This document shows positions 8,952-26,381 of a DNA stretch of 32,498 nt, one piece after another. Below the pieces are notes generated by a model. The model saw nothing but the letters and a program-made list of their open reading frames with translations. It was not told the origin of the DNA and did not search any database. The DNA comes from Micrococcales bacterium. GTDB taxonomy: Bacteria; Actinomycetota; Actinomycetes; Actinomycetales; Microbacteriaceae. Every line of letters starts with the position of its first letter. Within the stretch, counting starts at the first letter, position 1. The DNA lies in the NCBI GenBank assembly GCA_947454255.1, contig CANGIU010000015.1, positions 1-32,498 on the forward strand, given 5' to 3'. The translations under genes were made by a program, and so were the position numbers.

Positions 8952-9167
8952 AGTTCGCCTTTCAGGGGAATGGTTAGTTAATCTTCCCACACAATAACAA
9001 GGAGTTCGTTCAAGACCAGAAACCCTAAAGTTATGGTCTTTCTAGATATTTCTTTAAATATTAATAGCAGTAATAGCCTCTGTGGAATATGTGTATAACT
9101 GGCTACTTATCAGTATTTAGTCCTAAATAACAACGGTGAAAGTTGTATACACAGGTGGGGATAAAAG

Positions 9168-9176
9168 TGTGGATAA
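9168..9176 (-). promoter_or_regulatory. Perfect DnaA box in oriC region
   Basis: TGTGGATAA, the exact complement of TTATCCACA. It lies 12 bases from the one-mismatch box at 9156-9164. Confidence 0.85.
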
Positions 9177-9269
9177 CTCTTGGGGTTGTGTAAAGGAAAT
9201 AGGGAACTAACACTATAGGCCTAGCTATTCACAGTTTTTGCATGGAAATTTGATAGTTATCAACAGAAA

Positions 9270-9278
9270 TGTGGATAA
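9270..9278 (-). promoter_or_regulatory. Perfect DnaA box next to the dnaA stop
   Basis: TGTGGATAA, 17 bases from the dnaA stop codon. The oppositely oriented one-mismatch box TTATCAACA lies at 9257-9265. Confidence 0.85.
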
Positions 9279-10765: not shown

Positions 10766-10795
10766 ATCATACCCTGTGGATAAATCAAAATACAA
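10766..10795 (-). promoter_or_regulatory. Probable dnaA promoter with a DnaA box in the spacer
   Basis: On the minus strand a -10 hexamer TATGAT (10766-10771) is preceded at 18 bases by a weak -35 TTGTAT (10790-10795). The perfect DnaA box TTATCCACA (10775-10783) lies between them, so DnaA bound there would block RNA polymerase. The transcript would begin about 60 bases before the dnaA ATG. Confidence 0.5.
10775..10783 (-). promoter_or_regulatory. Perfect DnaA box upstream of dnaA
   Basis: TGTGGATAA on the plus strand, i.e. TTATCCACA on the dnaA coding strand. Together with the weaker boxes at 10742 and 10807 it is a likely autoregulatory site. Confidence 0.8.
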
Positions 10796-10949
10796 ACTTT
10801 TGACCCTGTGGAAAACTCCGCTAGTGTATTCAACTGCCTAATGGAATGAAATTGCAAATCGAGAGGGTACTTTTTGCTTAGTTTTTTCAAAAATGTTACA
10901 AACATCATTTTGAAACTTGAGTTTTCCAAAATATTTCTTTGATAAAAAC

Positions 10950-11549: not shown

Positions 11550-11565
11550 TTAATAAGGTTAACAA

Positions 11566-11889
11566 ATGCAACTAGTAGCCCTAAATCTCTGGTTAGTTCC
11601 CAGAAATGCCATGGTGGCATTCATTGTTGCCTGGCGTAAATTAATCTCACCACTTTATGGAAATGTCTGCCGTTATTACCCTTCCTGCTCTGCTTACGGT
11701 CTAGGCTCTATACAGCAGCATGGTTTGATCTACGGTTCACTATTGACCAGTTGGAGAATACTGCGTTGCAACCCATTTGCTAAAGGTGGCGTCGACGAAG
11801 TCAAGCCCGGCCCTAGTTGGTTGAGCCTGACTAAAACAGGTTTTGTATATGCGAAACACGAAGTAGTGCCTTCGGAAAAGGATAAATAA
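11566..11889 (+). CDS. yidD: Membrane protein insertion efficiency factor YidD
   Basis: This is a small peripheral membrane protein thought to help YidC/Sec-dependent insertion. The 107 residues carry the family core CRYYPSCSAYG (35-45) and ILRCNPFAKGG (65-75), with conserved Cys35, Cys41 and Cys68. An amphipathic or hydrophobic N-terminal segment (about 4-28) precedes it. AAGG stands before the ATG. It lies between rnpA and yidC, and its stop is 2 bases from the yidC ATG. Confidence 0.95.
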   Translation: MQLVALNLWLVPRNAMVAFIVAWRKLISPLYGNVCRYYPSCSAYGLGSIQQHGLIYGSLLTSWRILRCNPFAKGGVDEVKPGPSWLSLTKTGFVYAKHEVVPSEKDK

Positions 11890-11891
11890 AA

Positions 11892-12836: not shown

Positions 12837-12842
12837 GACTAA

Positions 12843-13370
12843 ATGTCAGATGAATTAGAGACCCAAGAAGTAATTGCAGAAACAGAAGCAACAGAGCCTA
12901 AGAGCTCAGCAAAGGATCTAGAAGAAGAAGGCGAAGTAGCTGCCGACTACCTAGAAGAACTCCTTGACATCTTTGACTTAGACGGAGATATCAACATTGA
13001 CGTTCGCCAAGGCAGAGCATATTTGGAGATCACAGCCGACCAGGAGAGCAACCTAAGACTAATCTCTGAACCAGAGACAGTCGAGGCCCTTCAGGAGCTA
13101 ACTCGAATTGCTGTTCAGGCTAAGACCCAGTCATTCAGCCGACTAATCCTTGATATCGCAGGTTCGCGTCAGGCCAAGGTGGATGCCCTAACTAAGGTTG
13201 TGAACCGAGTAATCGACAAGGTGAAGGACACGAACGCACCTGTTGCGATGAAGCCAATGTCCTCTTACGAGCGCAAAATCGCCCACGACCTTATTGGCGA
13301 AGCGGGCCTAGTTTCAGAATCAGAAGGCGAAGGCAAAGAGCGCCACATTGTGGCTAAGCCAGCTGAATAG
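12843..13370 (+). CDS. jag: KH/R3H RNA-binding protein Jag/KhpB
   Basis: This is a 175-residue single-stranded nucleic-acid-binding protein. An acidic N-terminal tail (about 1-45) replaces the Jag_N domain found in Firmicutes. It is followed by a KH-like domain (about 46-110) and an R3H domain whose RxxxH is Arg144-Lys-Ile-Ala-His148 in SYERKIAHDL. In other bacteria KhpB pairs with KhpA to bind RNAs and affects cell division and wall synthesis; whether that holds here is unknown. It is the last gene before a strong terminator, and a parS site begins at its stop codon. Confidence 0.92.
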   Translation: MSDELETQEVIAETEATEPKSSAKDLEEEGEVAADYLEELLDIFDLDGDINIDVRQGRAYLEITADQESNLRLISEPETVEALQELTRIAVQAKTQSFSRLILDIAGSRQAKVDALTKVVNRVIDKVKDTNAPVAMKPMSSYERKIAHDLIGEAGLVSESEGEGKERHIVAKPAE

Positions 13371-13384
13371 TTTCACGTGAAACA
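13369..13384. promoter_or_regulatory. parS site 1 (jag-rsmG)
   Basis: AGTTTCACGTGAAACA matches the bacterial parS consensus TGTTTCACGTGAAACA at 15 of 16 bases. It overlaps the end of the jag stop codon and lies about 1.8 kb from parB. ParB should load here as a CTP-dependent clamp. Confidence 0.95.
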
Positions 13385-13388
13385 TGAG

Positions 13389-13413
13389 GCCAGGAATCCG
13401 TTCCTGGCTTTTT
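13389..13413 (+). terminator. Rho-independent terminator after jag
   Basis: An eight-base-pair perfect stem GCCAGGAA/TTCCTGGC (13389-13396 with 13401-13408) closes a TCCG loop and is followed by TTTTTG. It ends the rpmH-jag operon. It also shows that the ATG at 13384, which lies in parS and just before this hairpin, is not the rsmG start. Confidence 0.85.
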
Positions 13414-13440
13414 GTTTCTCTCAAGAAAGCAGAGTTAGAG

Positions 13441-14097
13441 ATGGCAAATCAGAGTTCAGCCGAGGGCCAAGTTATCCCAGAAGCAGAGCCTGCAGTCGCC
13501 GCAATCATCTTTGGCAACCATATGAACCAAGCCAGAAAATACGCTGAACTTCTGATCCGCGACGGAGACATGCTAGGTCTCATTGGTCCAAGAGAACTCC
13601 CTAAGCTTTGGTCAAGACACATCCTAAATTCGGCCGTAGTGGCAGAGTACGTGTCAGCTGGGCAGAAAGTGGCAGACATTGGCTCAGGAGCCGGGCTTCC
13701 TGGAATCCCAATGGCCATTGTTAGCCCAGACACCGAATTTGTTCTAATCGAACCGATGGAGCGTCGAGCAACTTGGTTAGCCGAAGTCGCCATTCCTGAG
13801 ATAGGCCTTCAAAACGTCAAAGTTCTTAGGGGGAGAGCTGAAGAAGCGCCATTGGCAAATTACGACGTAGCTACTGCAAGGGCAGTCTCGGCACTACCTA
13901 AGTTGCTCAAAATGCTAGTTCCACTAGTTGTACCAGGTGGACAGATTCTTGCCCTCAAAGGTTCAAGAGCGGGTGAGGAGATCGAAGAGTCCAGGCCTCT
14001 GGCAAAAAGGATGAAAATCTCAAATTTCGAGGTTCTAACTGCAGGAGCCAAGACGCTCGAAGAGCCAACAACGATTGTTCGCGTTACGCTACTCTAG
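13441..14097 (+). CDS. rsmG: 16S rRNA (guanine527-N7)-methyltransferase RsmG
   Basis: Methylates N7 of G527 in 16S rRNA using S-adenosylmethionine (formerly GidB). I chose the ATG at 13441, giving 218 residues. The longer reading from 13384 would translate parS and the terminator hairpin. The Rossmann-type SAM loop is VADIGSGAGLPGIP (about 78-91), preceded by the family motif WSRHILNS (about 57-64). A further conserved stretch is ATARAVSALPKL, and LALKGSRAGEEI follows it. Loss of this enzyme causes low-level streptomycin resistance in other bacteria. It stands before parA as in most Actinobacteria. Confidence 0.93.
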   Translation: MANQSSAEGQVIPEAEPAVAAIIFGNHMNQARKYAELLIRDGDMLGLIGPRELPKLWSRHILNSAVVAEYVSAGQKVADIGSGAGLPGIPMAIVSPDTEFVLIEPMERRATWLAEVAIPEIGLQNVKVLRGRAEEAPLANYDVATARAVSALPKLLKMLVPLVVPGGQILALKGSRAGEEIEESRPLAKRMKISNFEVLTAGAKTLEEPTTIVRVTLL

Positions 14098-14118
14098 AGA
14101 CCTAAACATGGAGAAATA

Positions 14119-14316
14119 TTGTCAGAAGAACTAAAGACTTCAGCAGCGATGGAGATTCCTGCTGAGCATAGCGCGACAGCTCCTCGCACAGTTGTCGCGG
14201 GTCTTGGATACCCTAACGGTAGAGATTCAGCTAGCCCTCAACCCACCGGGTGGCAGGCAAATACAGCCGAAGTAACGATTATTGAGAAGCAGGTTTCACG
14301 TGAAACATCCAGATGA
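14119..14316 (+). CDS. Small ORF between rsmG and parA; possible detached ParA N-terminal extension
   Basis: This is a 65-residue open frame from TTG with GGAG 5 bases upstream. The peptide is polar, Pro/Ala-rich and probably disordered, with no recognised domain. Its last residues, VSRETSR, are encoded by parS site 2. In mycobacterial ParA the residues VSRETS, also encoded by a parS, lie inside a long N-terminal extension. Here the ParA body continues in the +1 frame from the same spot. This could be a real coupled small gene, a remnant of a longer ParA separated by a frameshift, or a sequencing error. I cannot choose between these. Confidence 0.4.
   Translation: MSEELKTSAAMEIPAEHSATAPRTVVAGLGYPNGRDSASPQPTGWQANTAEVTIIEKQVSRETSR
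14292..14307. promoter_or_regulatory. parS site 2 (overlaps the parA start)
   Basis: GGTTTCACGTGAAACA matches the parS consensus at 15 of 16 bases. The GTG proposed as the parA start (14300-14302) lies in the centre of the palindrome, and the AGCAGG that serves as its ribosome-binding site overlaps the left edge. ParB bound here could therefore affect expression of its own operon. Confidence 0.95.
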
Positions 14317-15205
14317 AATTGGTATCCCAGGGGGTTTCAAGGACGCCCCGCTTGCTCAAGAACTAAGCGAAAACTCTCGAAGACTTTCTAACGTAAACAG
14401 CGCAGTGGTCCCCCAGCCTGCCAAAACCAGGATTTTCGCGGTATCAAACCAAAAAGGTGGGGTTGGCAAGACAACCACAGCTGTCAACATCGCAGTCGCA
14501 CTTGCCAATAAGGGCATGAAAGTGCTAGTTATTGACCTAGATCCTCAAGGAAACGCATCCACCGCACTTGGAATCGACCATGCAAATCGCGAAGCTTCCA
14601 TCTATGACGTTCTTCTCAAGGGCAGGTCTATTGCTGAAACAGCCCAGATAAGCCCTGAGTCCCCAAATGTGAAGTGTGTGCCGGCAAACATTTATTTGGC
14701 TAACGCAGAACTTGAGCTCTATCCCCTAAAGCCATGGGAGCATCGCTTACAAAACGCCATCAGCACCTATCTGGAGAGCCCAGAAAACGCGCTTGATTAC
14801 GTATTCATCGACTGCCCACCAAGCTTGGGTGTTCTTACTATCAACGCTTTTAGTGCGGCAACTGAGGTGCTTATCCCTATTCAGTGCGAGTACTACGCCC
14901 TCGAAGGTTTGAGCCAACTAAGAGAGACCATTGGCAAGATTCGCCAGTTCCAGAACCCCGAACTAGGCGCGGCAACCATTGTGCTGACTATGTATGACTC
15001 CAGGACCAAACTAAATGCTGCCGTAGTTGAGGATGTGCGAGCGCACTTCCCTGACCAGACGCTAAACACCCTTATCCCCCGACAAATCGGCGTAGCAGAG
15101 GCACCAGGCTATGGTCAAACAGTAATCAACTACGACCGTAGCTCAACAGGATCTATCGCATACATGGAAGCCGCAATCGAACTAGCACAAAGAGGAGCAA
15201 AGTAA
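14300..15205 (+). CDS. parA: Chromosome partitioning ATPase ParA (Soj)
   Basis: This is a Walker-type ATPase that moves ParB-parS complexes to segregate origins. I chose the GTG at 14300 (301 residues), with AGCAGG 6 bases upstream; a TTG at 14282 is the alternative. A short tail with DAPLAQEL (about 15-22) precedes the deviant Walker A KGGVGKTT (52-59), whose first Lys is the signature lysine of the ParA/MinD class. VIDLDPQGNAS is the A' motif and VFIDCPPSLG the Walker B. The stop TAA shares one base with the parB ATG. The N-terminus is shorter than in mycobacteria. Confidence 0.93.
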   Translation: MKHPDEIGIPGGFKDAPLAQELSENSRRLSNVNSAVVPQPAKTRIFAVSNQKGGVGKTTTAVNIAVALANKGMKVLVIDLDPQGNASTALGIDHANREASIYDVLLKGRSIAETAQISPESPNVKCVPANIYLANAELELYPLKPWEHRLQNAISTYLESPENALDYVFIDCPPSLGVLTINAFSAATEVLIPIQCEYYALEGLSQLRETIGKIRQFQNPELGAATIVLTMYDSRTKLNAAVVEDVRAHFPDQTLNTLIPRQIGVAEAPGYGQTVINYDRSSTGSIAYMEAAIELAQRGAK

Positions 15206-16158
15206 TGGCTGAGAAAAAAGGTGGCCTAGGCAGAGGAATCGGAGCTCTAATCCCTGCAGCTGCAAGCCAGGATCGCATGGAACGTCCAGCTGACGGCAAC
15301 CCGATCAGCGTCTTCTTTGGCGGATCAACTAATGCACCGGTCGATTTACTTCCTGTTCCAGGGGCAACCTTTGGTTTTATAAACATTGATGACATAACCC
15401 CTAACGCTAAACAGCCGAGAACCAACTTCGATCCAGATGATTTCGCAGAACTCGTTGGCAGCGTCAAGGAGTTCGGTGTTCTTCAGCCAATCTCTGTTCG
15501 TTCACTTGGTAAACAAAACGGGATCGACAAGTATGAACTGATCATGGGAGAGCGTAGATTGCGCGCCTCTAAGGCTGCAGGCTTGACTCAGATCCCTGCG
15601 GTTATCCGTGAAACCGGCGATGAGAACATGCTTCGTGACGCTTTGCTTGAAAACCTGCACAGAAGTGATCTAAATGCAATCGAAGAAGCCAGCGCTTATC
15701 AACAACTTCTTGAGGAATACGGCTGCACCCAGGATCAGCTAGCAGAAAAACTTTCTAGATCAAGACCTCAAATCACAAATACCATTCGTCTTCTAAAGCT
15801 TCCAACCACACTTCAAAGCAAAGTTGCTGCTGGAGTGCTCAGTGCAGGGCATGCCAGAGCCATTCTGGCTCTAGATACACCTGAGCGCATGATTGAGGTT
15901 GCAGACAAGGTTATAAACCTAGGGCTATCTGTGAGAGCCACCGAAGAATTAGTCAAAGCCCCGGCAAAAAGAGGCAAAGTCAAGGTCGGCACAAAGCAAC
16001 AAGCCCTCAAAACTCTCGCTGACTCGATTGCGGATCGTCTAAACACATCAGTGCGGATCAAGTTAGGTTTGAAAAAGGGAACGATTGAGATCGACTTCGC
16101 AAGTGTTGACGATATGAATCGTATTTTGACTGAACTAGGCCACGACACCAAGTATTGA
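15205..16158 (+). CDS. parB: Chromosome partitioning protein ParB (Spo0J)
   Basis: This CTP-dependent DNA clamp loads at parS and spreads. The 317 residues start with LGRGIGALI (8-16), the ParA-stimulating peptide. The CTPase domain shows KQPRTNFD (69-76), GERRLRAS (115-122) and ENLHR (149-153). The helix-turn-helix that reads parS follows (about 165-220, with LSRSRPQITNTIRLLKLP). A C-terminal dimerisation region ends the protein. The start overlaps the parA stop by one base, so it is tightly coupled to parA. The two parS sites upstream are its targets. The gene ends convergently with the aminotransferase. Confidence 0.96.
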   Translation: MAEKKGGLGRGIGALIPAAASQDRMERPADGNPISVFFGGSTNAPVDLLPVPGATFGFINIDDITPNAKQPRTNFDPDDFAELVGSVKEFGVLQPISVRSLGKQNGIDKYELIMGERRLRASKAAGLTQIPAVIRETGDENMLRDALLENLHRSDLNAIEEASAYQQLLEEYGCTQDQLAEKLSRSRPQITNTIRLLKLPTTLQSKVAAGVLSAGHARAILALDTPERMIEVADKVINLGLSVRATEELVKAPAKRGKVKVGTKQQALKTLADSIADRLNTSVRIKLGLKKGTIEIDFASVDDMNRILTELGHDTKY

Positions 16159-16163
16159 GCGGG

Positions 16164-16204
16164 TGTGGATAACTATCCACAAGTTATAAACAGAGTTATC
16201 CACA
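16164..16204. promoter_or_regulatory. DnaA-box cluster in the parB-aminotransferase spacer
   Basis: Within 41 bases there are two perfect DnaA boxes, TGTGGATAA (16164-16172) and TTATCCACA (16196-16204), and one with a single mismatch, CTATCCACA (16173-16181). The first and second are head-to-head and form the inverted repeat GTGGAT-AACT-ATCCAC (16165-16180). The spacer is only 57 bases long and lies between convergent genes, so no promoter is expected here. It may be a DnaA titration or regulatory site. Confidence 0.8.
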
Positions 16205-16215
16205 GGGTAAAACTG

Positions 16216-17427
16216 TTACTTTGATGCCAGTTCATCATTGATTGTCTTAGCTAGTCGCTGAACACCGACTCTAATGTTTTCAGGTGTCGGGTAAGAGTAA
16301 GAGATTCTTAGGAACTCTTGTCCTGTTCCATTGCCATAGAAGGCAGTTCCTGGAGTATAGGCGACTAAATTCTCAACTGCTCGAGGCAGCATCTTCTTAG
16401 AGTTAATACCCTTAGGAAGGTCTACCCATAGATAGAACCCACCTCCTGGGTTGGTTGTAGTCAGATTGGGTAAGAATTCTTTCATTGCTGCCTGAGCTGC
16501 GTCTCTTCTTTGTCGATATTCTCCACGGAAGACTTCAATCTGAGCCTTCCAGTCGTTATTGCTCAAATACTCGCTGATCATCATCTGGCTAAATGCACTA
16601 GGGCATAGCACTGCAGATTCATTAGCTAAAACCAATTTCTCTCTAATGCTCGGTGGTGCAAGAACATAACCAACACGAAATCCTGGAACAAGAATTTTTG
16701 AGAAGCTACCTAAGTAGATAACTCCGTCTTCATCAAGCGAGCGCAAAGCATCAGGTGCACGATTTTCAAAATACAAAAGCCCATAGACGTTATCTTCTAA
16801 AACCAAGATGTGATGACGACGGCAGATTTCTAAAACTTTGCTTCGACGATCAGCGCTGAGAGTCACACCGCTAGGGTTAGCAAAGTTTGGTACCAAGTAG
16901 AGAAACTTAATTTTCTTTCCAGCAGCCTGGACTCTTTCGATAGTTTGGTTTAGAGCTTCAGGAGAAATACCTTCTAGGTCTGTGTATACGTGTTCGATGT
17001 GCGCTTGTCTTGCACGGAACACCCCTAAAGCTCCTACGTAACTCGGTCCTTCAGCTAAAACAACATCACCTGGATCTAAGAACAGTGAAGAAACCAGATC
17101 AAGTCCATGTTGTGAACCAGTGGTAATGACGATGTCGTCAACCTTGCTTTTAATTCCTTCGAGACCCATGATCTCTCGGATGTGTTCTCGCAAAACAGGA
17201 TCACCTTGACCGCCAGAATATTGCAGAGCTTGGTTTGATCGATCTGACATCAAAGAGTTAAATGTTTCAATCATTCGTTCTTTAGGAAGCGCTGGGACAA
17301 AGGGCATTCCACCGGCAAGAGAAACTACTTCCGGTCTTGAGACAACAGCAAATAACGCTCGCACTTCAGAAGCGGATAAACCGTTTGCGCGCGATGCGTA
17401 GTTATCTGACCACAGGTCTTTTGTCAT
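16216..17427 (-). CDS. PLP-dependent aminotransferase, class I/II fold (LysN-like)
   Basis: This is a fold-type I pyridoxal-phosphate transaminase of 403 residues. The Schiff-base lysine is Lys244 in GSFSKILVPG. Asn184 (PNFANPSG) and Asp212 (LEDNVYG) are the cofactor-contacting residues, and ITTGSQHGLD (101-110) starts the cofactor loop. The pattern resembles the 2-aminoadipate/aromatic aminotransferase group related to the catalytic half of MocR regulators, but no DNA-binding domain is attached. Substrate cannot be deduced from sequence; amino-acid metabolism is likely. It lies behind the trxA terminator, so it probably has its own promoter, and it converges with parB. Confidence 0.88.
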   Translation of the reverse strand: MTKDLWSDNYASRANGLSASEVRALFAVVSRPEVVSLAGGMPFVPALPKERMIETFNSLMSDRSNQALQYSGGQGDPVLREHIREIMGLEGIKSKVDDIVITTGSQHGLDLVSSLFLDPGDVVLAEGPSYVGALGVFRARQAHIEHVYTDLEGISPEALNQTIERVQAAGKKIKFLYLVPNFANPSGVTLSADRRSKVLEICRRHHILVLEDNVYGLLYFENRAPDALRSLDEDGVIYLGSFSKILVPGFRVGYVLAPPSIREKLVLANESAVLCPSAFSQMMISEYLSNNDWKAQIEVFRGEYRQRRDAAQAAMKEFLPNLTTTNPGGGFYLWVDLPKGINSKKMLPRAVENLVAYTPGTAFYGNGTGQEFLRISYSYPTPENIRVGVQRLAKTINDELASK

Positions 17428-17453
17428 GTGCTGTCCTTATTCGAGGTTAAAGG

Positions 17454-17490
17454 AAAACGGCTAGAGGGCGGTTGGCCCCATAGCCGTTTT
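17454..17490 (-). terminator. Terminator after trxA
   Basis: The minus strand reads AAAACGGCTA (17481-17490) then TAGCCGTTTT (17454-17463), a ten-base-pair stem with a GC-rich inner part, ending in T residues. It lies directly after trxA and separates it from the aminotransferase gene. Confidence 0.75.
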
Positions 17491-17504
17491 GCTTAGAAAC
17501 TAAT

Positions 17505-17828
17505 TTAGTTGATGAAATCACTCAAATCAGCCAAAAGCTGTGGCTTTGGCTTTGCACCAACAATTGACTTCACGACTTCACCGTTCTGGAAAACCTGAAG
17601 TGCTGGGATTGAGGTGATGCCATACTGCTGTGCTAGCTGTGGCTCTTCATCTACGTTTACTTTGACGATGGTTAGCTTCTCACCGTGTTCCGCTGAGATC
17701 TCATCGAGGATAGGAGAGACCATGCGGCATGGGCCACACCACTCAGCCCAGAAATCTACAAGTACTGGCTTGCCTGATGAGAGGACATCGGCCTGGAATG
17801 ATGCTGTGGTAACGCTCTTTGCTGACAT
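17505..17828 (-). CDS. trxA: Thioredoxin
   Basis: This is the small dithiol protein that reduces disulfides in cytoplasmic proteins and is recycled by TrxB with NADPH. The 107 residues are normal. The active site is WCGPC (30-34) after VDFWAEW, and the cis-proline is Pro75 in TSIPAL. A textbook AAGGAGC precedes the ATG. It lies 22 bases downstream of trxB, so both halves of the system are made together. It is followed by a strong terminator. Confidence 0.98.
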   Translation of the reverse strand: MSAKSVTTASFQADVLSSGKPVLVDFWAEWCGPCRMVSPILDEISAEHGEKLTIVKVNVDEEPQLAQQYGITSIPALQVFQNGEVVKSIVGAKPKPQLLADLSDFIN

Positions 17829-17850
17829 GTTTGCTCCTTGTTTAGTGACT

Positions 17851-18774
17851 CTATTTTACGCTTGCTAGATAGTGTTCTGCATCTAATGCGGCAACACATC
17901 CCGAACCTGCTGCAGTAATCGCTTGGCGGTAGGTCGGATCAATAACATCACCACAGGCGAACACACCTGGCAACGATGTCTTAGAAGATCTACCATCGAC
18001 TTTGATGAATTTCTCAGCAGTTAGCTCAACCTGGTTTTCTACCAACCAGACTCTTGGATCATTACCAACTGCAATGAACAATCCATCTAAATCAAGTTGA
18101 GCGGTTGTACCATCCACAGTGTTTCTGGTAACTATTCCTGAAAGTTTTCCATCACCAAGTAATTCGGCAACTTCGGTGTTCCAGATAACTTCAATCTTTG
18201 GATTAGCAAGAGCTCGCTCCTGCATAATCTTTGACGCCTTGAAGGTGTCTCTTCTATGAATTAGATATACCTTGCTGGCGAAACGTGTAAGGAAATTAGC
18301 TTCCTCCATGGCGGAGTCTCCACCACCGATAACCGCAATGGTCTTCTCTCTGAAGAAGAAACCATCGCAAGTAGCACACCATGAAACACCGTGACCACTG
18401 AGCTCCTTTTCCTTAGGCAAGCCAAGTTCACGGTATGCAGCTCCGGTAGCAAGAATTACAGTTTTAGCCTCAAAGGTTTGACCGCCACCGGTCTTCACAA
18501 TTTTTACGGTGCCCGAAAGATCAACTTCGATTACATCATCGAGTAAAACTTCCGTGCCAAATCTTTCAGCTTGGGCTCTGAATGCATCCATAAGTTCAGG
18601 ACCTTGTAAACCGGTCGGGAAGCCTGGGTAGTTTTCAACTTCAGTGGTCTTCATAAGCTCACCACCAGCTTCAACAGAAGAGGCGATAAGTAGTGGGTTT
18701 AGACCAGCGCGTGCTGTGTATATGCCCGCGGTATATCCTGCTGGGCCTGAACCGATGATGATGACTTCGCGCAA
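17851..18774 (-). CDS. trxB: Thioredoxin-disulfide reductase
   Basis: This flavoenzyme passes electrons from NADPH to thioredoxin. The start is TTG at 18772-18774 with GGAG 7 bases upstream, giving 307 residues starting MREVIIIGSGPAGY. A longer open frame to 19194 would run into murJ and encodes non-family sequence. The FAD loop is GSGPAG (8-13), the redox pair is Cys133/Cys136 in CATCDG, the NADPH loop is GGGDSA (150-155), and the second FAD segment is VFACGD near the end. It is followed by trxA; a 62-base gap separates it from murJ. Confidence 0.96.
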   Translation of the reverse strand: MREVIIIGSGPAGYTAGIYTARAGLNPLLIASSVEAGGELMKTTEVENYPGFPTGLQGPELMDAFRAQAERFGTEVLLDDVIEVDLSGTVKIVKTGGGQTFEAKTVILATGAAYRELGLPKEKELSGHGVSWCATCDGFFFREKTIAVIGGGDSAMEEANFLTRFASKVYLIHRRDTFKASKIMQERALANPKIEVIWNTEVAELLGDGKLSGIVTRNTVDGTTAQLDLDGLFIAVGNDPRVWLVENQVELTAEKFIKVDGRSSKTSLPGVFACGDVIDPTYRQAITAAGSGCVAALDAEHYLASVK

Positions 18775-18836
18775 GGTGATACTCCAAAAAATTGGGGATT
18801 CAGTCGAAATGACTAAGGCAAGTTTATCTCTTGTGT

Positions 18837-20474
18837 TTAGCGTTTCAGGAAGGCACGGATTGGCTTGGTTAGTGTTTCGATTTCCTCTGCCTGTAGAAGC
18901 TTTAGAACTACAAGATATACGGCTGTCATTACTGAACCGATAAGAGCACAGGTAGCCGCAGCGGCAAGTACTGAAAGCACAGGGAATGCTCCCGGCTTTG
19001 CCCCGCCTAAGGCCTGAAGGATTGCAAAGCCGACACCACCAGAAACTACTGCTGCGATAGCAAACTTCAGGGTAGCCATTGTTAGATGTGAGTGACCCAG
19101 CGAACCGAACTTTCTCTTGAACATGAAGAAAGCTAAAACTGCTTGAACGACAATACTTCCGCTTGTTACCAGAGAGAGAGAGAACACTATCCAAACAGGT
19201 TCTATATAGAACGCAACAAGTAGCGATCCGGCAACGTTAAACACCATCTGCACAGCAGTAAAGATGAATGGTGTTCTGGTGTCTTCGAGTGAGTAGAAAG
19301 CGCGTTGAATCATAAAGACGTAACTAAATGGCAGAAGTCCAACGACCATTGCGATTACAACATTTCCTAGAGCAATCGCGCTTGGTATTTCACCAACGAA
19401 AACTCTTGAGATCGGATATGCCAAAAGAATTAATCCTGTGGTTGCTAGAAAGCTAATCATCGCTATTGTTCTAAGACCATCGGCAAGATCATTTTTGAGT
19501 TCGTCGAATTTCTTTTCAACAGCATGAAGAGACATTCTGGTGAAGTATGCGGTGGCAATTGAAACTGTGGCTACCGAGTGTGGCAACATAAAAATCAACC
19601 AAGCAATTCCCATGGCTGCAACAGATGCGATTGCGACATATTGACCATTGATGTATTCACGACCGCCAACAGCAGTTGATGCAACTGCAGTTTGCACCAC
19701 ACCACCAATTTGAGTGATTAACAACATTCCTAAAGTCCAGGAAGCAGTCTTCATTGCAGGTGCGAGACCAACACCCTTCCAACCAAAGTTGAGATTGAAG
19801 GTAAGGCCCATGCGCTTCCAAAACACAAAGAGAATCAAAGCTTGAGCTGCAACACCGAGCGTTGCCGTTCCGGCTAGAAGAGTGATTTGTCCCTGACCCC
19901 AGGTTTCGACTGTTTGTTTACCCGTCGGGTCTAAGCCGAATTGCCAGATGAAGGCAGCCATACCAGCGATGGCAACTATGTTATTCAGAACCGGAGCCCA
20001 CATAAAGGGGCCAAATTTACTTCTTGCGTTTAGCACTTCACCAAGCAGTGTGTATAGACCATAGAAAAACAGTTGGGGCAAGCACCAGTATGCGAAAGCG
20101 GTAGCGAGAGCTAGTTGAGATTCAGACCAACCCTTGGTGTATAGGGAAACTAGCAGAGGAGCAGCCAGCGTGGTGATTATGGTGATCACTCCGAAGACGG
20201 TGATGGCTAAGGTCAGTAGCCGATCTATGTATGCCTTACCCCCGTCAGCGTGTAGGCGGGCTCTAACAATTTGGGGAACTAAAACTGCGTTTAGAACACC
20301 CCCGACGATGATGGCGTAAACGTTGTTGGGGAGTTGATTAGCAACTCCAAAAGCATCAGCAGCGTTAGTGGTAACACCAATGGTGGCCGCCAACATGATG
20401 GCACGAACAATGCCAAGCACTCTCGAGAGGACAGTGCCGCTTGCCATGATTAGTGACGAGCGCAGAACACTCAT
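18837..20474 (-). CDS. murJ: Lipid II flippase MurJ
   Basis: This is a MOP-superfamily flippase that carries lipid II across the membrane for peptidoglycan synthesis. The 545 residues contain about 14 hydrophobic segments. The start MSVLRSSLIMASGTVLSRVLG and the DAFGVANQLPN motif (about 40-50) are typical of the MviN/MurJ family. It lacks the long cytoplasmic pseudokinase extension of mycobacterial MviN. The start overlaps the stop of the DUF6049-like gene as ATGA, so the two are coupled, and the protein upstream may work with MurJ at the envelope. Confidence 0.93.
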   Translation of the reverse strand: MSVLRSSLIMASGTVLSRVLGIVRAIMLAATIGVTTNAADAFGVANQLPNNVYAIIVGGVLNAVLVPQIVRARLHADGGKAYIDRLLTLAITVFGVITIITTLAAPLLVSLYTKGWSESQLALATAFAYWCLPQLFFYGLYTLLGEVLNARSKFGPFMWAPVLNNIVAIAGMAAFIWQFGLDPTGKQTVETWGQGQITLLAGTATLGVAAQALILFVFWKRMGLTFNLNFGWKGVGLAPAMKTASWTLGMLLITQIGGVVQTAVASTAVGGREYINGQYVAIASVAAMGIAWLIFMLPHSVATVSIATAYFTRMSLHAVEKKFDELKNDLADGLRTIAMISFLATTGLILLAYPISRVFVGEIPSAIALGNVVIAMVVGLLPFSYVFMIQRAFYSLEDTRTPFIFTAVQMVFNVAGSLLVAFYIEPVWIVFSLSLVTSGSIVVQAVLAFFMFKRKFGSLGHSHLTMATLKFAIAAVVSGGVGFAILQALGGAKPGAFPVLSVLAAAATCALIGSVMTAVYLVVLKLLQAEEIETLTKPIRAFLKR

Positions 20475-20956
20475 GCGCTTTGCTTTCTTCTTCGCATGCG
20501 GATAACGCCAAGTGCAAGCAAGATCAGAATCAACCCGGCAAAACCGAATAACAAAAATAATTCAATATCAGGGTTAGCGGTCAGCTTTATCTCAGTAGTT
20601 GTACCTAAGCGTAAGTCAGTGAAAGTTGTTACCCACACTTTCAATGTGAAAGATCCCGATGCGATAGCTGTTACTGGAACTAGGGCATCTTTTCTTGAAT
20701 TAGCAGGCACAGTTAATGAAACATAGTCCTGAACATTAAGTGATGCATTTGTAGTTTGGGCATGCACGCGAATTCGGATTGGGCGATCGTAATTGTTCTG
20801 AACCGAAACTGGAACTTTTGATTCACGAGAGACCATGTTTATGTCAGAGCCAGGGACGATGAAAACTTGAGCTTGCGGCAGTGTCGCATTTGCAGGGCTG
20901 ACACTTCCAGCAATAGTCAAAACCAGAGAAAGTAAAACAAGTATTTTCTTCATCAT
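20471..20956 (-). CDS. Short DUF6049-like secreted/membrane-anchored protein
   Basis: This is a 161-residue protein with a signal peptide (about 1-25, MMKKILVLLSL then SPANA), a beta-rich extracellular part (about 26-130) and one C-terminal membrane helix (about 132-152) followed by a basic cytoplasmic end RMRRRK. In other Actinobacteria the place between a NUDIX gene and murJ is held by DUF6049 proteins of several hundred residues with the same C-terminal layout, so this looks like a minimal version keeping only the last domain and anchor. Homology is inferred from position and topology. The ATG at 20954-20956 overlaps the NUDIX stop, and its own stop overlaps murJ. The function is unknown. 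Confidence 0.65.
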   Translation of the reverse strand: MMKKILVLLSLVLTIAGSVSPANATLPQAQVFIVPGSDINMVSRESKVPVSVQNNYDRPIRIRVHAQTTNASLNVQDYVSLTVPANSRKDALVPVTAIASGSFTLKVWVTTFTDLRLGTTTEIKLTANPDIELFLLFGFAGLILILLALGVIRMRRRKQSA

Positions 20957-21405
20957 TGTTTTGAAACCCACTCTTGAACGATTATCGCTAATCGTCTTTC
21001 ATTTTCGTGAGTTAGCTCTTCTGATATTAAGTCGGTGTTGATCCAACGGATATCAACTGCTTCATGATCTGGATCGTTATCAATAGTTAGCGTGCCACCG
21101 GTTTGTTTCATCAAGAAGTGGTGCACTGTTTTACTAATGACCGCTGTTGGAGTTGAGAATTCATATCTGATTGAACCCAATGGTTCAATAATCTCTGCCT
21201 CTAAGCCAGTTTCTTCGAGAACTTCTCTGAGGGCTGCTGCCTCGATAGTTTCATTTCCTTCAAGGTGCCCCTTAGGAATGCACCAGTCAATTCGACCACC
21301 GCGATTGCGGCGGCCGATGACGGCTATGCGCGAAGACCCATCACCAGCTAGAACAAATCCCCCGGCTGAAGTCTCCTCGACGCGAGGTTTCGCTCGAGAG
21401 TTCAT
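20953..21405 (-). CDS. NUDIX hydrolase (MutT4-like)
   Basis: This is a 150-residue pyrophosphohydrolase of nucleoside-diphosphate-linked substrates. The complete Nudix box GX5EX7REVLEETGL is present from Gly46 to Leu68. The N-terminus ETSAGGFVLA and WCIPKGHLE are as in actinobacterial MutT4-type proteins located next to murJ. The substrate is not deducible. A TAGGCT hexamer 6 bases before the ATG may give a leaderless transcript. It is the first gene of the leftward run NUDIX-DUF6049-murJ and is divergent from cca, with 37 bases between them. Confidence 0.92.
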   Translation of the reverse strand: MNSRAKPRVEETSAGGFVLAGDGSSRIAVIGRRNRGGRIDWCIPKGHLEGNETIEAAALREVLEETGLEAEIIEPLGSIRYEFSTPTAVISKTVHHFLMKQTGGTLTIDNDPDHEAVDIRWINTDLISEELTHENERRLAIIVQEWVSKQ

Positions 21406-21442: not shown

Positions 21443-22891
21443 ATGAACGATTTCACGGGCATACTTAAATCCATGCCAACAGTTGAAGAGGCTCTAGCCA
21501 ATTTGCAGCGGACCAGCGAGAGTCCGTTACTTGTCAAACTCGGCACACTTTTCACAGCTGCAGGCTACGAGCTGGCCCTAGTTGGTGGCCCAGTTAGAGA
21601 TGCTTTCCTAGGCCGTGAAACAAATGATCTAGATTTCACAACTTCAGCAGACCCAGATCAAATCCTTTCTGTTCTAAAAGGGAACGTGGATGCCCACTGG
21701 GATATAGGTAGAGATTTTGGCACCATTGGCGCTCGCATTGGGGACACAACTGTTGAAATCACAACCTATCGCGCAGATCAGTATGACGCTGACTCTCGTA
21801 AGCCACACGTGGTCTTTGGTAAGGACCTAAGCGATGACCTATTCAGAAGGGACTTCGCAGTCAATGCCATGGCACTTAGGTTGCCTGATGGAGTATTTGT
21901 TGACCCATTCAACGGATTACAGGACCTTTTAGATGGAGTAATCAGAACACCTGGTAAACCTGAGGATAGTTTCAGTGATGATCCTCTGAGAATGATGAGG
22001 GCGGCCAGATTCGCTTCTCAACTGGGATTTCAGATTCACGAGGACACTTTCACAGCCATGAAGTCCATGGCTGAAAGAATTGAGATAGTTTCAGCTGAAC
22101 GCATTCAGGTTGAACTAGGCAAGCTGCTGCTAGGTGCTAATCCTAGGGAGGGCCTTGAAGCCCTTGTGGATTCAGGTTTGGCACAGATTGTTATTCCTGA
22201 ATTGCCGGCTCTAAAACTTGAGATTGATGAGCATCACCATCACAAGGATGTCTATCAACATACTCTTACTGTTGTTGAGCAGGCTATTGATTATGAGAAG
22301 GACTATGGCCTAGAGGGCGATTTAGTTCTTCGATTAGCAGCATTAATGCACGATATTGGTAAGCCTGCGACTAGAAAACTGGAACCAGGTGGTGGGGTTA
22401 CCTTCTATCACCACGATGTTGTTGGTTCAAAGCTTGCGAGTAAGCGGTTGAAAGAGCTCAAGTTTGATAACGAGACCATCAAATCTGTTTCAAGACTTAT
22501 CGAACTACACCTTCGTTTCTTTGGTTATAGCGATCAACCGTGGAGTGATTCAGCAATCAGGAGGTATGTCCGTGACGCTGATGACCAGCTTCTGAGACTT
22601 CACGCACTGACTCGTGCAGATGTGACCACACGCAATCAGAGAAAATCGGACCGCCTAGCCCATGCTTACGATGATCTTGAGAAGCGAATAGCAATTCTTG
22701 CTGAGCAAGAGCAGTTGAATGCAATTCGTCCTGATTTATCAGGCGAAGAGATCATGGAGATTCTGGAGATAAAGCCAGGACCTGAGGTTGGTGACGCTTA
22801 TCGATATCTACTGGAACTACGTTTGGACGAAGGCCCACTTTCAGAAGAAGAAGCAAAATCCCGCTTGCTTGCTTGGTGGCAATCAAGGTAG
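21443..22891 (+). CDS. cca: CCA tRNA nucleotidyltransferase
   Basis: This template-independent polymerase adds or repairs the CCA end of tRNAs. The 482 residues have the class II head domain with GGPVRD (48-53) and the metal-binding DLDFTT (62-67). The RNA-binding and specificity segment is around RRDFAVNAMA, and a C-terminal HD domain carries LMHDIGKP (about 301-308). The HD domain suggests extra phosphohydrolase activity, as in E. coli. It could start at ATG 21443 or at the later ATG 21473; I kept the first. Divergent from the NUDIX gene. Confidence 0.95.
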   Translation: MNDFTGILKSMPTVEEALANLQRTSESPLLVKLGTLFTAAGYELALVGGPVRDAFLGRETNDLDFTTSADPDQILSVLKGNVDAHWDIGRDFGTIGARIGDTTVEITTYRADQYDADSRKPHVVFGKDLSDDLFRRDFAVNAMALRLPDGVFVDPFNGLQDLLDGVIRTPGKPEDSFSDDPLRMMRAARFASQLGFQIHEDTFTAMKSMAERIEIVSAERIQVELGKLLLGANPREGLEALVDSGLAQIVIPELPALKLEIDEHHHHKDVYQHTLTVVEQAIDYEKDYGLEGDLVLRLAALMHDIGKPATRKLEPGGGVTFYHHDVVGSKLASKRLKELKFDNETIKSVSRLIELHLRFFGYSDQPWSDSAIRRYVRDADDQLLRLHALTRADVTTRNQRKSDRLAHAYDDLEKRIAILAEQEQLNAIRPDLSGEEIMEILEIKPGPEVGDAYRYLLELRLDEGPLSEEEAKSRLLAWWQSR

Positions 22892-22901
22892 AGTAGTGAA
22901 G

Positions 22902-22930
22902 TTGCCCTGAAGAGACCCTGTGCTTTTTAT
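22902..22930 (+). promoter_or_regulatory. Possible promoter of the rpsF operon
   Basis: TTGCCC (22902-22907) and TTTTAT (22925-22930) stand 17 bases apart, each matching four of six consensus bases. The transcript would carry the structured leader that follows. Confidence 0.35.
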
Positions 22931-22950
22931 GTGGGCAGCAACTGCATATA

Positions 22951-22995
22951 CCCTCCTGTCACGGAAACGCCGTGGCCGTTCTAGTCCAAAGGAGG
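22951..22995 (+). promoter_or_regulatory. rpsF leader structure, possible S6:S18 autoregulatory element
   Basis: A hairpin GTCACGG-AAACG-CCGTGGC (22958-22976) is followed by CCG. It is flanked by CCTCC (22952-22956), which is complementary to the strong ribosome-binding site GGAGG (22991-22995) of rpsF. Pairing of these two would close the structure and hide the binding site. Leaders of rpsF in many bacteria carry an S6:S18-binding motif with a conserved CCG. The match here is structural and by eye, not by a covariance model. Confidence 0.5.
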
Positions 22996-23005
22996 TGGGT
23001 TAGTC

Positions 23006-23401
23006 ATGCATAAATACGAAGTCATGGTCATTCTTGACTCAGACATCGAAGAGCGTACCGTCGGTGCCAGCTTAGACAAATTCCTCAACGTAGTTCGTAA
23101 CGGTGGAGGCACCGTTGACAGCGTTGACATTTGGGGCCGTCGCCGTTTCGCTTACGAAATCAACAAGAAAACCGAAGGCATCTACGCCGTCCTATACCTG
23201 ACCTGTCAGCCTGCTGAAGTTCTTGAGTTGGACCGTCAGTTGAAGCTCTCAGAAGCCGTTGTTCGCACCAAGGTGCTACGTGCTGAAGACGCAGTCTTCA
23301 GAATCAACGCTGTAGTCGTTCCAGAAGTTACTGCTGCTGAAAAGGCTGCTGACGAGAAGCCAGCTAGAGCCAAGAAGCCAGCAGCAAAGTCAGCTGAGTA
23401 A
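23006..23401 (+). CDS. rpsF: Ribosomal protein bS6
   Basis: This small-subunit protein pairs with S18 on the 16S platform. The 131 residues begin [16 protein letters not shown]. The core is about 1-95, with [17 protein letters not shown] as the conserved strand-loop, followed by an Ala/Lys/Glu-rich tail. The Shine-Dalgarno AAAGGAGG is optimal but may be masked by the leader. It is the first gene of rpsF-ssb-rpsR-rplI. Confidence 0.97.
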
Positions 23402-23406
23402 TTCTC

Positions 23407-23907
23407 ATGGCCGGTGAACTAACTATTACCGTCGTTGGCAACCTAGCCAACGATCCAGAATTGCGTAATACCAACAGTGGTATTGCTTTTGTAGGCCTAA
23501 ACGTGGCTTCAACTCCACGTACCTACAACCGCAACACCAGCACTTGGGAAGACGGCGAAACTGTTTGGGTTAGATGCACAGCTTGGCGCGATGTTGCCGA
23601 TAACGTAGCTCGTTCTCTTACAAAGGGAACCAGAGTCATCGTGACCGGTCGTCTAAAGCCTGCCTCTGCTTACCAGTCAAACACTGGTGAAGCCCGTGCT
23701 TCAATCGAAATTGAGATTGAAGAAATTGGTCCTTCACTTCGCTACGCAACCGCAACCGTAACCCGCAAGGCACGCGATGCTGGGGCAGTTGACTCTAACG
23801 CTTGGGGTAGTACTCCAGTTGCGCCAGTCACCCCACCAGCTAACGATGCTTGGGCCAACCCAGGAGTTGATGGTGGCTTTGCCGCTGGCGACTCGACACC
23901 TTTCTAA
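23407..23907 (+). CDS. ssb: Single-stranded DNA-binding protein
   Basis: This protein coats single-stranded DNA at forks and recruits partner enzymes through its C-terminal tip. The 166 residues contain an OB fold (about 1-112) starting with ELTITVVGNLANDPELR. A short disordered linker rich in Pro/Ala/Asn follows, then the end GDSTPF. The Pro-Phe of the usual acidic tip (DDDIPF type) is kept but only one acidic residue remains in the last six. The gene lies 5 bases after rpsF without a strong Shine-Dalgarno sequence, so coupling is likely. Confidence 0.96.
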   Translation: MAGELTITVVGNLANDPELRNTNSGIAFVGLNVASTPRTYNRNTSTWEDGETVWVRCTAWRDVADNVARSLTKGTRVIVTGRLKPASAYQSNTGEARASIEIEIEEIGPSLRYATATVTRKARDAGAVDSNAWGSTPVAPVTPPANDAWANPGVDGGFAAGDSTPF

Positions 23908-23926
23908 GAATTCATAGGAGATACAA

Positions 23927-24190
23927 ATGGCAGCAAAAGTAAACAGCGACCGCGTCAAGAAGGGCAGTCGCAACGCAAAGAACCTAAAGCTTGCACCTGC
24001 AAAGCCAATCAAGGTCGGCGTTATCGATTACAAGGACATCGCAACTCTTCGTAAGTTCGTGTCTGACCGTGGCAAGATCCGCTCTCGCCGCATCACCGGA
24101 GTTTCTGTTCAGGAACAACGTCTAATTGCCCGTGCAGTAAAGAACGCTCGTGAGGTTGCACTTATGCCTTACGCTGGCGCTGGCAGATAA
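23927..24190 (+). CDS. rpsR: Ribosomal protein bS18
   Basis: This 87-residue small-subunit protein is the partner of S6. It contains [20 protein letters not shown] and the signature [20 protein letters not shown]. It has no cysteines, so it is the zinc-free form. TAGGAGA precedes the ATG. Standing in the same operon as rpsF fits feedback by an S6:S18 complex on the leader. Confidence 0.97.
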
Positions 24191-24203
24191 GTAAGGAAGA
24201 CAG

Positions 24204-24656
24204 ATGTCTAAAGTAATTTTGACCAACGAGGTATCGGGCCTAGGCTCAGCCGGAGACGTTGTTGAAGTAAAGAACGGTTACGCACGTAACTACCTATTGC
24301 CTAGAGGCTTTGCAGTTATCTGGACCAAGGGTGGCGAGAAGCAGGTTAGTTCAATCAAAGCTGCTCGTGACGCACGTGCGCTAGCAACTGTTGAAGAAGC
24401 CCAGGCTTTCAAAGACAGCTTGCAGGCTAACCCAATCAAGGTGGCTGTTAAAGCTGGCGTTGGTGGCCGTCTATTCGGTGCAGTCAAGAATGGCGATGTT
24501 GCAGCAGCAGTTGCAGCAGCAGGTCTTGGCGAGATCGACAAGCGCAAGGTAGCTTTCTTCTCACCAATCCGCACCACAGGTAACTTTGAAGCAACTGTAA
24601 AGCTGCATTCAGACCTAACCGCAACTCTAAAACTTCAGGTTGTTGCAAAGAAGTAA
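24204..24656 (+). CDS. rplI: Ribosomal protein bL9
   Basis: This is a large-subunit protein with two globular domains joined by a helix. The 150 residues start [18 protein letters not shown] and show the L9 signature [17 protein letters not shown] (about 20-36). The connecting helix runs at about 40-75, and the C-terminal domain follows. AAGGAAG precedes the start. It is the last gene of the ribosomal/SSB operon, followed by a strong terminator. Confidence 0.97.
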
Positions 24657-24668: not shown

Positions 24669-24705
24669 CTAATGGCAGGCTCAGTGAGCCTGCCATTAGT
24701 GCTTT
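24669..24705 (+). terminator. Rho-independent terminator after rplI
   Basis: CTAATGGCAGGCTCA (24669-24683) is the exact complement of 24685-24699, giving a very strong stem with a minimal loop, followed by TGCTTT. It ends the rpsF-rplI operon and insulates dnaB. Confidence 0.85.
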
Positions 24706-24728
24706 AAGAGGACCAGACACGCCGAATC

Positions 24729-24748
24729 TGTGGATAACTTGTGGATAA
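24729..24748 (-). promoter_or_regulatory. Two DnaA boxes, 11 bases apart
   Basis: TGTGGATAA at 24729-24737 and again at 24740-24748. The 11-base period places both on the same face of the helix. Confidence 0.85.
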
Positions 24749-24750
24749 CC

Positions 24751-24766
24751 CATGAAATATTTCATG
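24751..24766. repeat. 16-base perfect palindrome
   Basis: CATGAAATATTTCATG equals its own complement. It begins 2 bases after the second DnaA box and is AT-rich. It could be a dimeric regulator site or a start of DNA unwinding. It does not match parS or any operator I recognise. Confidence 0.6.
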
Positions 24767-24865
24767 AAAAACAGATCGTTTCAAAACCTTAATGCACAGG
24801 TTTAACCTTTAGTTAATGTTTGAACAGTGAGCCTACAGGCCAATGAATCATTAGGTTTCAGGAAG

Positions 24866-24939
24866 TTATCCACAGCTATCACCAGATTTATCCACAATTT
24901 ATCCACAGTTGACACGGCGTGTTCCCCTAGTTATCCACA
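24866..24939 (+). promoter_or_regulatory. Four DnaA boxes with near-helical phasing
   Basis: TTATCCACA occurs at 24866-24874, 24888-24896, 24899-24907 and 24931-24939. The start-to-start steps are 22, 11 and 32 bases, close to two, one and three helical turns. All four face opposite to the boxes at 24729-24748. Confidence 0.88.
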
Positions 24940-25001
24940 GATTAAATCACAGCCTTTATTGCCTACTGAATGTCTATGGTGGATGCTACACATAAGTTCT
25001 G

Positions 25002-25031: not shown

Positions 25032-26381
25032 ATGTCCATTGCACCAGTAGCTAAGGCCTTCAAATCTGAAGATCGCTTGCTCCCTCATGACCTAAACGCT
25101 GAACAGAGCACCTTGGGTGGAATGCTGCTTTCAGCAGATGTAGTTCACTCAATTCTTTCTGAGGGAAAGCTTAAAGCTAGAGACTTTTATGCCCCTAAGC
25201 ACGAGCTTATTTATAGCGCCATTGCTGCATTGGCTAATCATGGTGAACCAACTGACGTTATTACTGTCAACGCGGAACTTTCAAAAATGGGAAAGCTCGC
25301 AACAATCGGTGGAGCCGAATACTTACATGAATTAACTTCGATTGTTCCAACAGCAGCGAGCGCAAAGTTTTACGCAGACATCGTAAGAGATAAAGCGGTA
25401 TTGCGCCGGTTGATTGAAGTTGGAACACGTATTGCCCAACGGGGTTATGACGCTGAAGGTGAAGTTGAAGAATTAGTCAACGTTGCACAAAACGAAATCT
25501 ACACAGTTGCAGATGAATCAACTGGTGCAGATTGGACGAGACTAAGTAAAGCGTTGCAGGATGCTGCAGATGAAATTGAATTGATCCAGAAGAAGGACGG
25601 TCTTTCTGGAGTGCCAACTGGGTTTACACAATTTGATAAAGACACTAACGGATTACACCCAGGACAACTTGTGATTATTGCTGCACGTCCAGGTCTTGGT
25701 AAGTCAACTCTTGCACTTGACATAGCGAGAGAAGCTGCAATCAACAACAAACTTGCAACAGCAGTTTTCTCACTTGAAATGAGCACCACAGAAATTGCGA
25801 TGCGGTTGCTTTCTGCAGAAACAGGAATTCAATTGCAGAGTATGCGTCGCGGTGGAATTACAGATAACGAGTGGGCAATCATGGCAGAGCGCAGAAGCAA
25901 CATTGGTGCGGCTCCTCTAGTCATTGACGACAGCCCGAATCTAAACATTGTTGAGATTAGAGCAAAGTGTCGCCGCATGCTTAAAGAGTTTGATTTGAAA
26001 CTTGTAATTATTGATTACTTGCAATTGATGACATCAGGCAAGAAAGTTGAAAACCGTCAGCAAGAAGTCTCTGAATTCTCAAGATCTCTAAAGCTGCTGG
26101 CAAAGGAATTAAAGGTTCCAGTTATCGCTCTTTCACAGCTGAACCGTAAATCTGAAGACGGCACGAACAAGAAACCAGAATTGTCACAACTTCGTGAGTC
26201 AGGGTCCCTTGAGCAAGACGCTGACGTTGTAGTACTAATTCATCGCGATCTCACTGGTGCAGAAACCGCAAGACCAGGTGAAGCAGAACTTATTCTTGCG
26301 AAGCAACGTAACGGACCTACTGGATCTTCAACTGTTCTATTCCAAGGACAGTACTCTCGATTCGTCAACCCGAAGGAATAG
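25032..26381 (+). CDS. dnaB: Replicative DNA helicase DnaB
   Basis: This hexameric 5'-3' helicase unwinds DNA ahead of the fork and recruits primase. The 449 residues match the family; there is no intein, although actinobacterial dnaB genes often carry one. The N-terminal domain (about 15-160) starts LPHDLNAEQSTLGGML. The RecA-like motor has Walker A ARPGLGKST (218-226), LVIIDYLQLM as Walker B, and ALSQLNRKSE. The end SRFVNPKE is usual. The upstream DnaA-box array is unusual. The loader in this genome is probably the DciA-like protein at 5229-5720. Confidence 0.97.
   Translation: MSIAPVAKAFKSEDRLLPHDLNAEQSTLGGMLLSADVVHSILSEGKLKARDFYAPKHELIYSAIAALANHGEPTDVITVNAELSKMGKLATIGGAEYLHELTSIVPTAASAKFYADIVRDKAVLRRLIEVGTRIAQRGYDAEGEVEELVNVAQNEIYTVADESTGADWTRLSKALQDAADEIELIQKKDGLSGVPTGFTQFDKDTNGLHPGQLVIIAARPGLGKSTLALDIAREAAINNKLATAVFSLEMSTTEIAMRLLSAETGIQLQSMRRGGITDNEWAIMAERRSNIGAAPLVIDDSPNLNIVEIRAKCRRMLKEFDLKLVIIDYLQLMTSGKKVENRQQEVSEFSRSLKLLAKELKVPVIALSQLNRKSEDGTNKKPELSQLRESGSLEQDADVVVLIHRDLTGAETARPGEAELILAKQRNGPTGSSTVLFQGQYSRFVNPKE

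Follow-up and report, generated by a model that had tools for sequence, protein, structure and literature searches.

A regularly spaced DnaA-box array upstream of dnaB in Actinomycetes and its probable role as a DnaA-responsive control region

DnaA binding upstream of dnaB in described bacteria

The control of initiation by DnaA has been less studied in Actinomycetes than in Escherichia coli and Bacillus subtilis. The dnaB gene of Caulobacter crescentus was reportedly assigned to the DnaA regulon by Hottes in 2005. Closest to the locus studied here are the mycobacteria, in which IDAP-seq with Mycobacterium tuberculosis DnaA and ChIP-seq in Mycobacterium smegmatis both detected binding upstream of dnaB (PMC7738170). 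At 150 nM M. tuberculosis DnaA, five regions were highly enriched, namely oriC, rpmH-dnaA, dnaB and two more, and homologues of the same five regions were recovered by ChIP-seq in M. smegmatis (PMC7738170). The DnaA variant I282T showed weaker binding upstream of dnaB, and dnaB was under-expressed; in the available text of that study, the dnaB site is treated in only a few sentences (PMC7738170). According to the accessible part of another source, C. crescentus dnaB belongs to the DnaA regulon (PMC8203912), and its predicted upstream DnaA boxes and DnaA-dependent expression (PMC8203912, PMC7738170) resemble what we propose below. C. crescentus belongs to another phylum than our Micrococcales host, and the likeness drawn here concerns the gene and its predicted boxes.

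The DNA analysed here, hereafter the window, is the whole stretch of 32,498 nucleotides from a Micrococcales bacterium. Like the bound regions of M. tuberculosis, it carries box clusters at oriC, rpmH-dnaA and dnaB, and the array before dnaB lies at the same gene and on the same side as the bound Rv0057/dnaB region of M. tuberculosis and its counterpart in M. smegmatis (PMC7738170). The upstream neighbour differs, being Rv0057 in M. tuberculosis (PMC7738170) and here rplI with a hairpin behind it. The boxes here are perfect TTATCCACA and more numerous than those of locus L255, which is only inferred to be mycobacterial and has two sites within 500 bp. DnaA binding before dnaB is already known from mycobacteria, and the conservation reported here is wider and more regular than what we have seen in print; a literature search, largely outside subscription journals, recognised nothing on the conservation or class-wide spacing of the array.

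DnaA boxes in the rplI-dnaB spacer

A motif scan of the window located six perfect DnaA boxes in the 375-bp spacer between rplI and dnaB (Table 1), two facing left with a step of 11 bp and four facing right with successive steps of 22, 11 and 32 bp, which confirmed the count, orientation and spacing given in a previous sequence-only reading of this DNA. The left pair and the right-facing four are separated by 117 bp without a perfect box. The register of the boxes is largely kept in 14 aligned rows, window included, and all nine columns of the last perfect box are invariant there. At up to one mismatch, both boxes of the left pair were found in 13/13 close relatives (L009-L021) and the first right-facing box in 11 of the 13, being absent from L012 and L014. 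Most of the array is flanked by an element ACACGCCG (24717-24724) and its complement (24915-24922), the right copy of which is kept as TCGGCGTGTT in most of the 14 rows. A role for TCGGCGTGTT between the boxes was rejected, with occurrences at up to two mismatches before dnaB in 24/40 family genomes and before dnaN in 25/40.

Table 1. Coordinates of features in and around the DnaA-box array and the likely origin.
Feature	Position	Strand	Basis
Likely oriC, dnaA-dnaN spacer	9062..9278		Box sites 9081, 9090, 9156, 9168, 9257, 9270 and DnaA-trio run
DnaA-trio run TAATAGCAGTAATAG	9062-9076		Trio scoring
rplI (50S ribosomal protein L9), upstream of array	24204..24656	+	TIGR00158, 120.6 bits (cut-off 58.6)
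15-bp perfect hairpin after rplI	24669..24699	+	Repeat search
Left-facing perfect DnaA box pair, step 11	24729-24737, 24740-24748	-	Motif scan
Right-facing perfect DnaA box	24866-24874	+	Motif scan
Right-facing perfect DnaA box pair, step 11	24888-24896, 24899-24907	+	Motif scan and alignment
Right-facing DnaA box, last perfect one before dnaB	24931-24939	+	Motif scan and alignment
Conserved promoter-like block TGTCTATG-N8-TACACA	24971..24992	+	Alignment of relatives
dnaB, replicative DNA helicase	25032..26381	+	TIGR00665, 492.9 bits (cut-off 385.25)

The window holds 11 perfect boxes, compared with a mean of 0.28 and a largest value of 3 in 100 dinucleotide-preserving shuffles, and 27 boxes at up to one mismatch, compared with a shuffle mean of 6.66. 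The draft genome (1.24 Mb, 34 contigs) has 20 copies of the perfect box, 11 of them in the window, and five of the reversed motif. The degenerate motif TTDTCCACA and its reversed form each occur 34 times genome-wide; 14 of the 34 sites are on the window contig, and no close group of three was present among the 20 sites on the other contigs of the draft. Within the window, the clusters are found in the dnaA-dnaN spacer (9081-9278), upstream of dnaA (10742-10815), after parB (16164-16204) and before dnaB. A chance cluster, in favour of which nothing speaks beyond the shortness of the motif, is refuted by these shuffle counts together with the conservation of the array in the class sample, and its probability can be regarded as negligible.

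Distribution of the array in relatives

Sites were counted as TTDTCCACA at up to one mismatch within 500 bp upstream of dnaB, and the reversed motif served as control. Of the 66 loci obtained by a DnaB search of named genomes, 64 have at least three sites (control 0/66), with a mean of 7.3 sites against 0.21 for the reversed motif, and L066 is the only one of them to lack a perfect box in the upstream stretch of up to 500 bp (present in 65). For the family, 199 genomes were searched, dnaN was located in 60, and 40 of these (37 genera) were taken, a sample that requires dnaB among the matches listed and leans to nearer DnaB relatives. At least three sites precede dnaB in 37/40 of these genomes (control 2) and fewer than three in 3/40, counts that overstate the evidence since genomes within the family are not independent; before dnaN, at least three sites were found in 38/40 (control 0; one dnaN stretch has just 378 bp).

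For the class, the 30 best matches among 78 genomes were taken, the host's own among them, genomes with a dnaB match in pieces having ranked lower; two of the other 29 loci belong to the host's own family. Among these 29, at least three sites were found in 26 (control 3/29) and fewer than three in three. The best matches from 90 genomes of the phylum gave 26 further loci, one of which (L255) belongs to the class, and four of the 26 have at least three sites (control 0). Within the Actinomycetes sampled the array is widespread, and outside them it occurs sporadically; the conservation in relatives that the sequence-only reading had named as a check was borne out.

The spacing is conserved as well, since same-facing boxes repeat steps of 12, 44, 55 and 67 bp across the family. 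Between right-facing sites of the 40 family genomes, a 12-bp distance is present in 28, the 55-bp and 67-bp distances in 22 each and the 44-bp distance in 17, whereas random placement of the same site numbers in 300 bp (500 runs, kinship of the genomes being ignored) gave no single distance in more than 10/40. In 27 class loci outside the family, listed without a null model, the 12-bp step recurs in four families, 44 and 45 bp in three each, and 55 and 66 bp in two each, along with distances of 20-24, 56 and 64-65 bp. According to the available text of PMC11317965, E. coli DnaA has a preference for boxes separated by 2-3 bp, which gives a step of 11-12 bp, and this step between same-facing boxes is common to the E. 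coli pairs and the array described here. Unlike the E. coli pairs (PMC11317965), the array extends beyond two boxes and adds recurrent distances of about 44, 55 and 67 bp.

Association of the array with dnaB

The gene rplI lies near dnaB in 36/40 family stretches (1 kb) and in 25/26 phylum loci. Among the 29 class loci it was found within about 1.5 kb upstream of dnaB in three and not found there in 26, of which 23 nevertheless have at least three sites in the 500 bp before dnaB. Three genomes of a single genus, which may share one rearrangement, have dnaB about 566 kb (G147), 454 kb (G020) and, if its contig is circular, 624 kb (G189) from dnaN, and the steps are kept despite this distance (12/57/67, 44/57/67 and 12/44/57/67, respectively). 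A genome of another genus (G163), with dnaB about 762 kb from dnaN, has five sites and keeps the steps 12/57. Conservation follows dnaB rather than the origin or rplI, because the boxes are retained at a dnaB remote from dnaN and at loci where rplI was not found nearby.

Dense DnaA boxes outside oriC and near the origin are found in E. coli at datA, where the boxes and an IHF site promote hydrolysis of DnaA-ATP, and at DARS a core group of boxes releases ADP from DnaA. In Streptomyces coelicolor, box clusters lie near oriC, and one of them (D78) affects replication frequency, which counts in favour of the idea that the array would mainly titrate or inactivate DnaA near the origin, as datA does, its place before dnaB being incidental. 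At a distance of about 15 kb from oriC, the six perfect boxes would take up a large amount of DnaA and would be copied early in replication; a titration site would also fit the proximity of the array to dnaA, which holds for most of the genomes sampled. Dense boxes outside oriC and near the origin are shared by the array, datA and a titration region described in the accessible part of PMC12371093; unlike the latter two, the array is tied to one gene and is kept when dnaB is far from dnaN. The persistence of the array with dnaB hundreds of kb from dnaN and the recurrence of its steps directly upstream of dnaB in several families argue against titration as the main role, which we consider quite unlikely.

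The dnaA-dnaN spacer and the origin of replication

The sequence-only reading had counted two perfect boxes in the dnaA-dnaN spacer; this number is correct, but six sites are present there at up to one mismatch of TTDTCCACA (Table 1). The box register of this spacer is largely kept in genus relatives, and 4-8 box sites were found in 29 of 30 usable loci of the genus sample (dnaN found in 32/40 genomes), the exception being L241 with only 41 bp upstream. The DnaA-trio run TAATAGCAGTAATAG is identical in the window and its three nearest loci, and its score was matched by 4/1000 simple shuffles. The trio score is 4.5 in the dnaA-dnaN spacer vs 2.5 in the dnaB spacer; it serves as a local argument only, because 0/40 family genomes reach 4 at either dnaN or dnaB.

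The sequence-only reading had named the skew minimum as a check on the origin, and the outcome was mixed. The skew of G189, as sampled, is positive to the right of dnaN and negative to its left over about 900 kb and has the same sign on either side of dnaB, and G147 weakly resembles it, with a turn at dnaN and not at dnaB. The window (wide low in cumulative skew, spanning about 8-20 kb), G006 (local low in the dnaA-dnaB interval, about 13 kb from dnaA), and G163 and G020 (noisy, with no clear turn for dnaN) gave no clear answer. Skew per gene at four-fold sites mostly tracked gene direction and gave no replication signal.

An origin at the array, either an additional one or the true one of the chromosome, would agree with its number of boxes and with the left pair facing the right boxes, both of which resemble an origin, as well as with the skew lows of the window and G006 and the unclear skew of G163 and G020. 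The conserved boxes of the dnaA-dnaN spacer, the trio run in the window without a comparable run in the dnaB spacer, and the skew of G189, with which G147 weakly agrees, oppose it, and we judge an origin at the array very unlikely; the second initiation site suggested earlier finds little support. The same reading had argued that genes between rpmH and rplI would be head-on to forks from here. Assuming a leftward fork starting at the array, this holds for the plus-strand genes at 11214-16158 and 21443-24656 and fails for 16216-21405, which is on the minus strand and co-directional. Its preference for regulation of dnaB rather than a main oriC is supported, as the boxes track dnaB and the dnaA-dnaN spacer keeps its own.

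Promoter-like block and proposed function of the array

The hairpin after rplI was found in all 14 aligned rows, window included, and is possibly a transcription terminator without a strong T run that separates rplI from dnaB; a terminator scan reported none. The promoter-like block starts 31 bp beyond the last perfect box, upstream of dnaB, and its TGC-TACACA may represent an extended -10. A sigma-70 scan gave no plus-strand site, and the conservation of the block suggests that the dnaB promoter is located there. An RNA family search of the window returned only a tRNA (53-126).

The position of the perfect boxes upstream of the promoter-like block, not over it, bears on the sign of regulation. 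If the array were a repressor site, bound DnaA would hold dnaB down until that DnaA is consumed or inactivated once initiation has taken place. In several bacteria DnaA acts as a repressor of the dnaA promoter according to the accessible part of PMC8203912, and both the published binding upstream of dnaB (PMC7738170) and the conservation of the array together with dnaB would fit repression. In addition to the position of the boxes, the available data on DnaA I282T, which binds less and gives less dnaB, not more (PMC7738170), speak against it, and repression appears unlikely.

We propose, with a probability of roughly 0.68, that the array is a DnaA-responsive, most likely activating, control region of dnaB, a reading also supported by the published mycobacterial binding of DnaA upstream of this gene (PMC7738170, as far as its text is available). 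What we observe here is the box row with its recurrent steps, its link to dnaB and its position before the promoter-like block; occupancy by DnaA in the host, cooperativity and activation are inferred. DnaA molecules would occupy the boxes cooperatively, aligned head to tail along nearly the same face of the helix, between the rplI hairpin and the dnaB promoter. The bound row would most likely activate dnaB transcription, a sign that the sequence itself cannot give, and helicase supply would follow the amount or nucleotide state of DnaA. Helicase supply is probably tied to the state of this replication initiator, because the box row before dnaB recurs with regular spacing across the sampled class. 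That an array with repeated steps precedes dnaB in the families sampled from the class, near dnaA or far from it, suggests an ancient coupling between the initiator and the helicase recruited by it, and the array offers a defined 200-bp target for testing the DnaA-dnaB coupling.

Possible DNA-damage promoter of dnaB

In relatives, the promoter-like block often reads TGTCGGTAG-N-GGATGCTAGACA, which resembles TTGTCRGTG-N8-TANNNT, the RecA-NDp/PafBC promoter consensus. Scores of at least 7/9 against this consensus were obtained before dnaB in 31/66 DnaB-search loci (shuffles 3.3%, other strand 3), 20/40 family genomes (3.4%, other strand 1), 9/29 class loci (2.6%, other strand 1) and 1/25 phylum loci (1.8%), and before dnaN in 3/40 family genomes (4.3%). 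As a positive control, recA reached this score in 17/24 genus loci, own included (shuffles 2.7%). The dnaB block of the window is weak, with 6/9, a score reached by 16.7% of shuffles of the 66-locus set. The host's own recA scores 4; upstream of it (L313, G000:C17), TAGTGT is kept and the TGTCGGTG-like part is absent.

The strict RecA-NDp pattern occurs at four sites in the host genome, compared with four for the reversed control. Two of the four have a frame of at least 100 codons starting within 250 bp, these frames appearing by eye to be oligoribonuclease-like and BirA-like, and two have none. A damage promoter is unproven in the host species, because the strict pattern is no commoner than its reversed control and two of its sites lack a frame. 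The genome encodes two neighbouring WYL proteins, neither of which was named by an NCBIfam search, followed by frames that resemble TatA and TatC by eye.

We know of no described Hda, SeqA or datA in Actinomycetes. It is conceivable, though doubtful, that dnaB of Actinomycetes has an ancestral two-input region composed of the fixed-step DnaA array and a PafBC-type damage promoter, in which the array may be a main DnaA sensor and sink; if so, helicase supply would answer both replication initiation and DNA damage. In M. tuberculosis treated with mitomycin C, dnaB was overexpressed in a partly PafBC-dependent manner, and its promoter was listed with those that carry an SOS box, annotated or putative, according to the available text of PMC8151990. 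The gene was still induced with recA deleted and pafBC silenced, and other inputs therefore exist (PMC8151990).

Other box clusters and replication-related features of the window

Three TTDTCCACA sites (one perfect) lie about the dnaA start at 10742-10815, match the DnaA-bound rpmH-dnaA site of mycobacteria and likely serve dnaA autoregulation. Three further boxes (two perfect) are located at 16164-16204, between the convergent parB and an aminotransferase-like gene, where a promoter is not expected. Among 22 loci scanned, a counterpart with five sites is present at the matching distance from dnaB in L010, L012, L014 and L016, and two or three sites occur in the matching region of L017, L018, L019, L023 and L070, known by region alone and not relative to parB; the remaining 13 relatives have one or no site there. 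The boxes at 16164-16204 are a candidate for a subgroup-specific titration or segregation-linked DnaA site.

Beside recF, a DUF721-like protein is encoded at 5229-5786 (128.1 bits, below the curated cut-off of 246), which is presumably DciA-like, that is, a helicase loader. According to the available part of PMC13270200, conservation of a DnaA domain I dimer is seen in the class and is less evident in the phylum, and this reach resembles that of the array. Two parS-like sites, with one mismatch, are located near parA (13369-13384 and 14292-14307).
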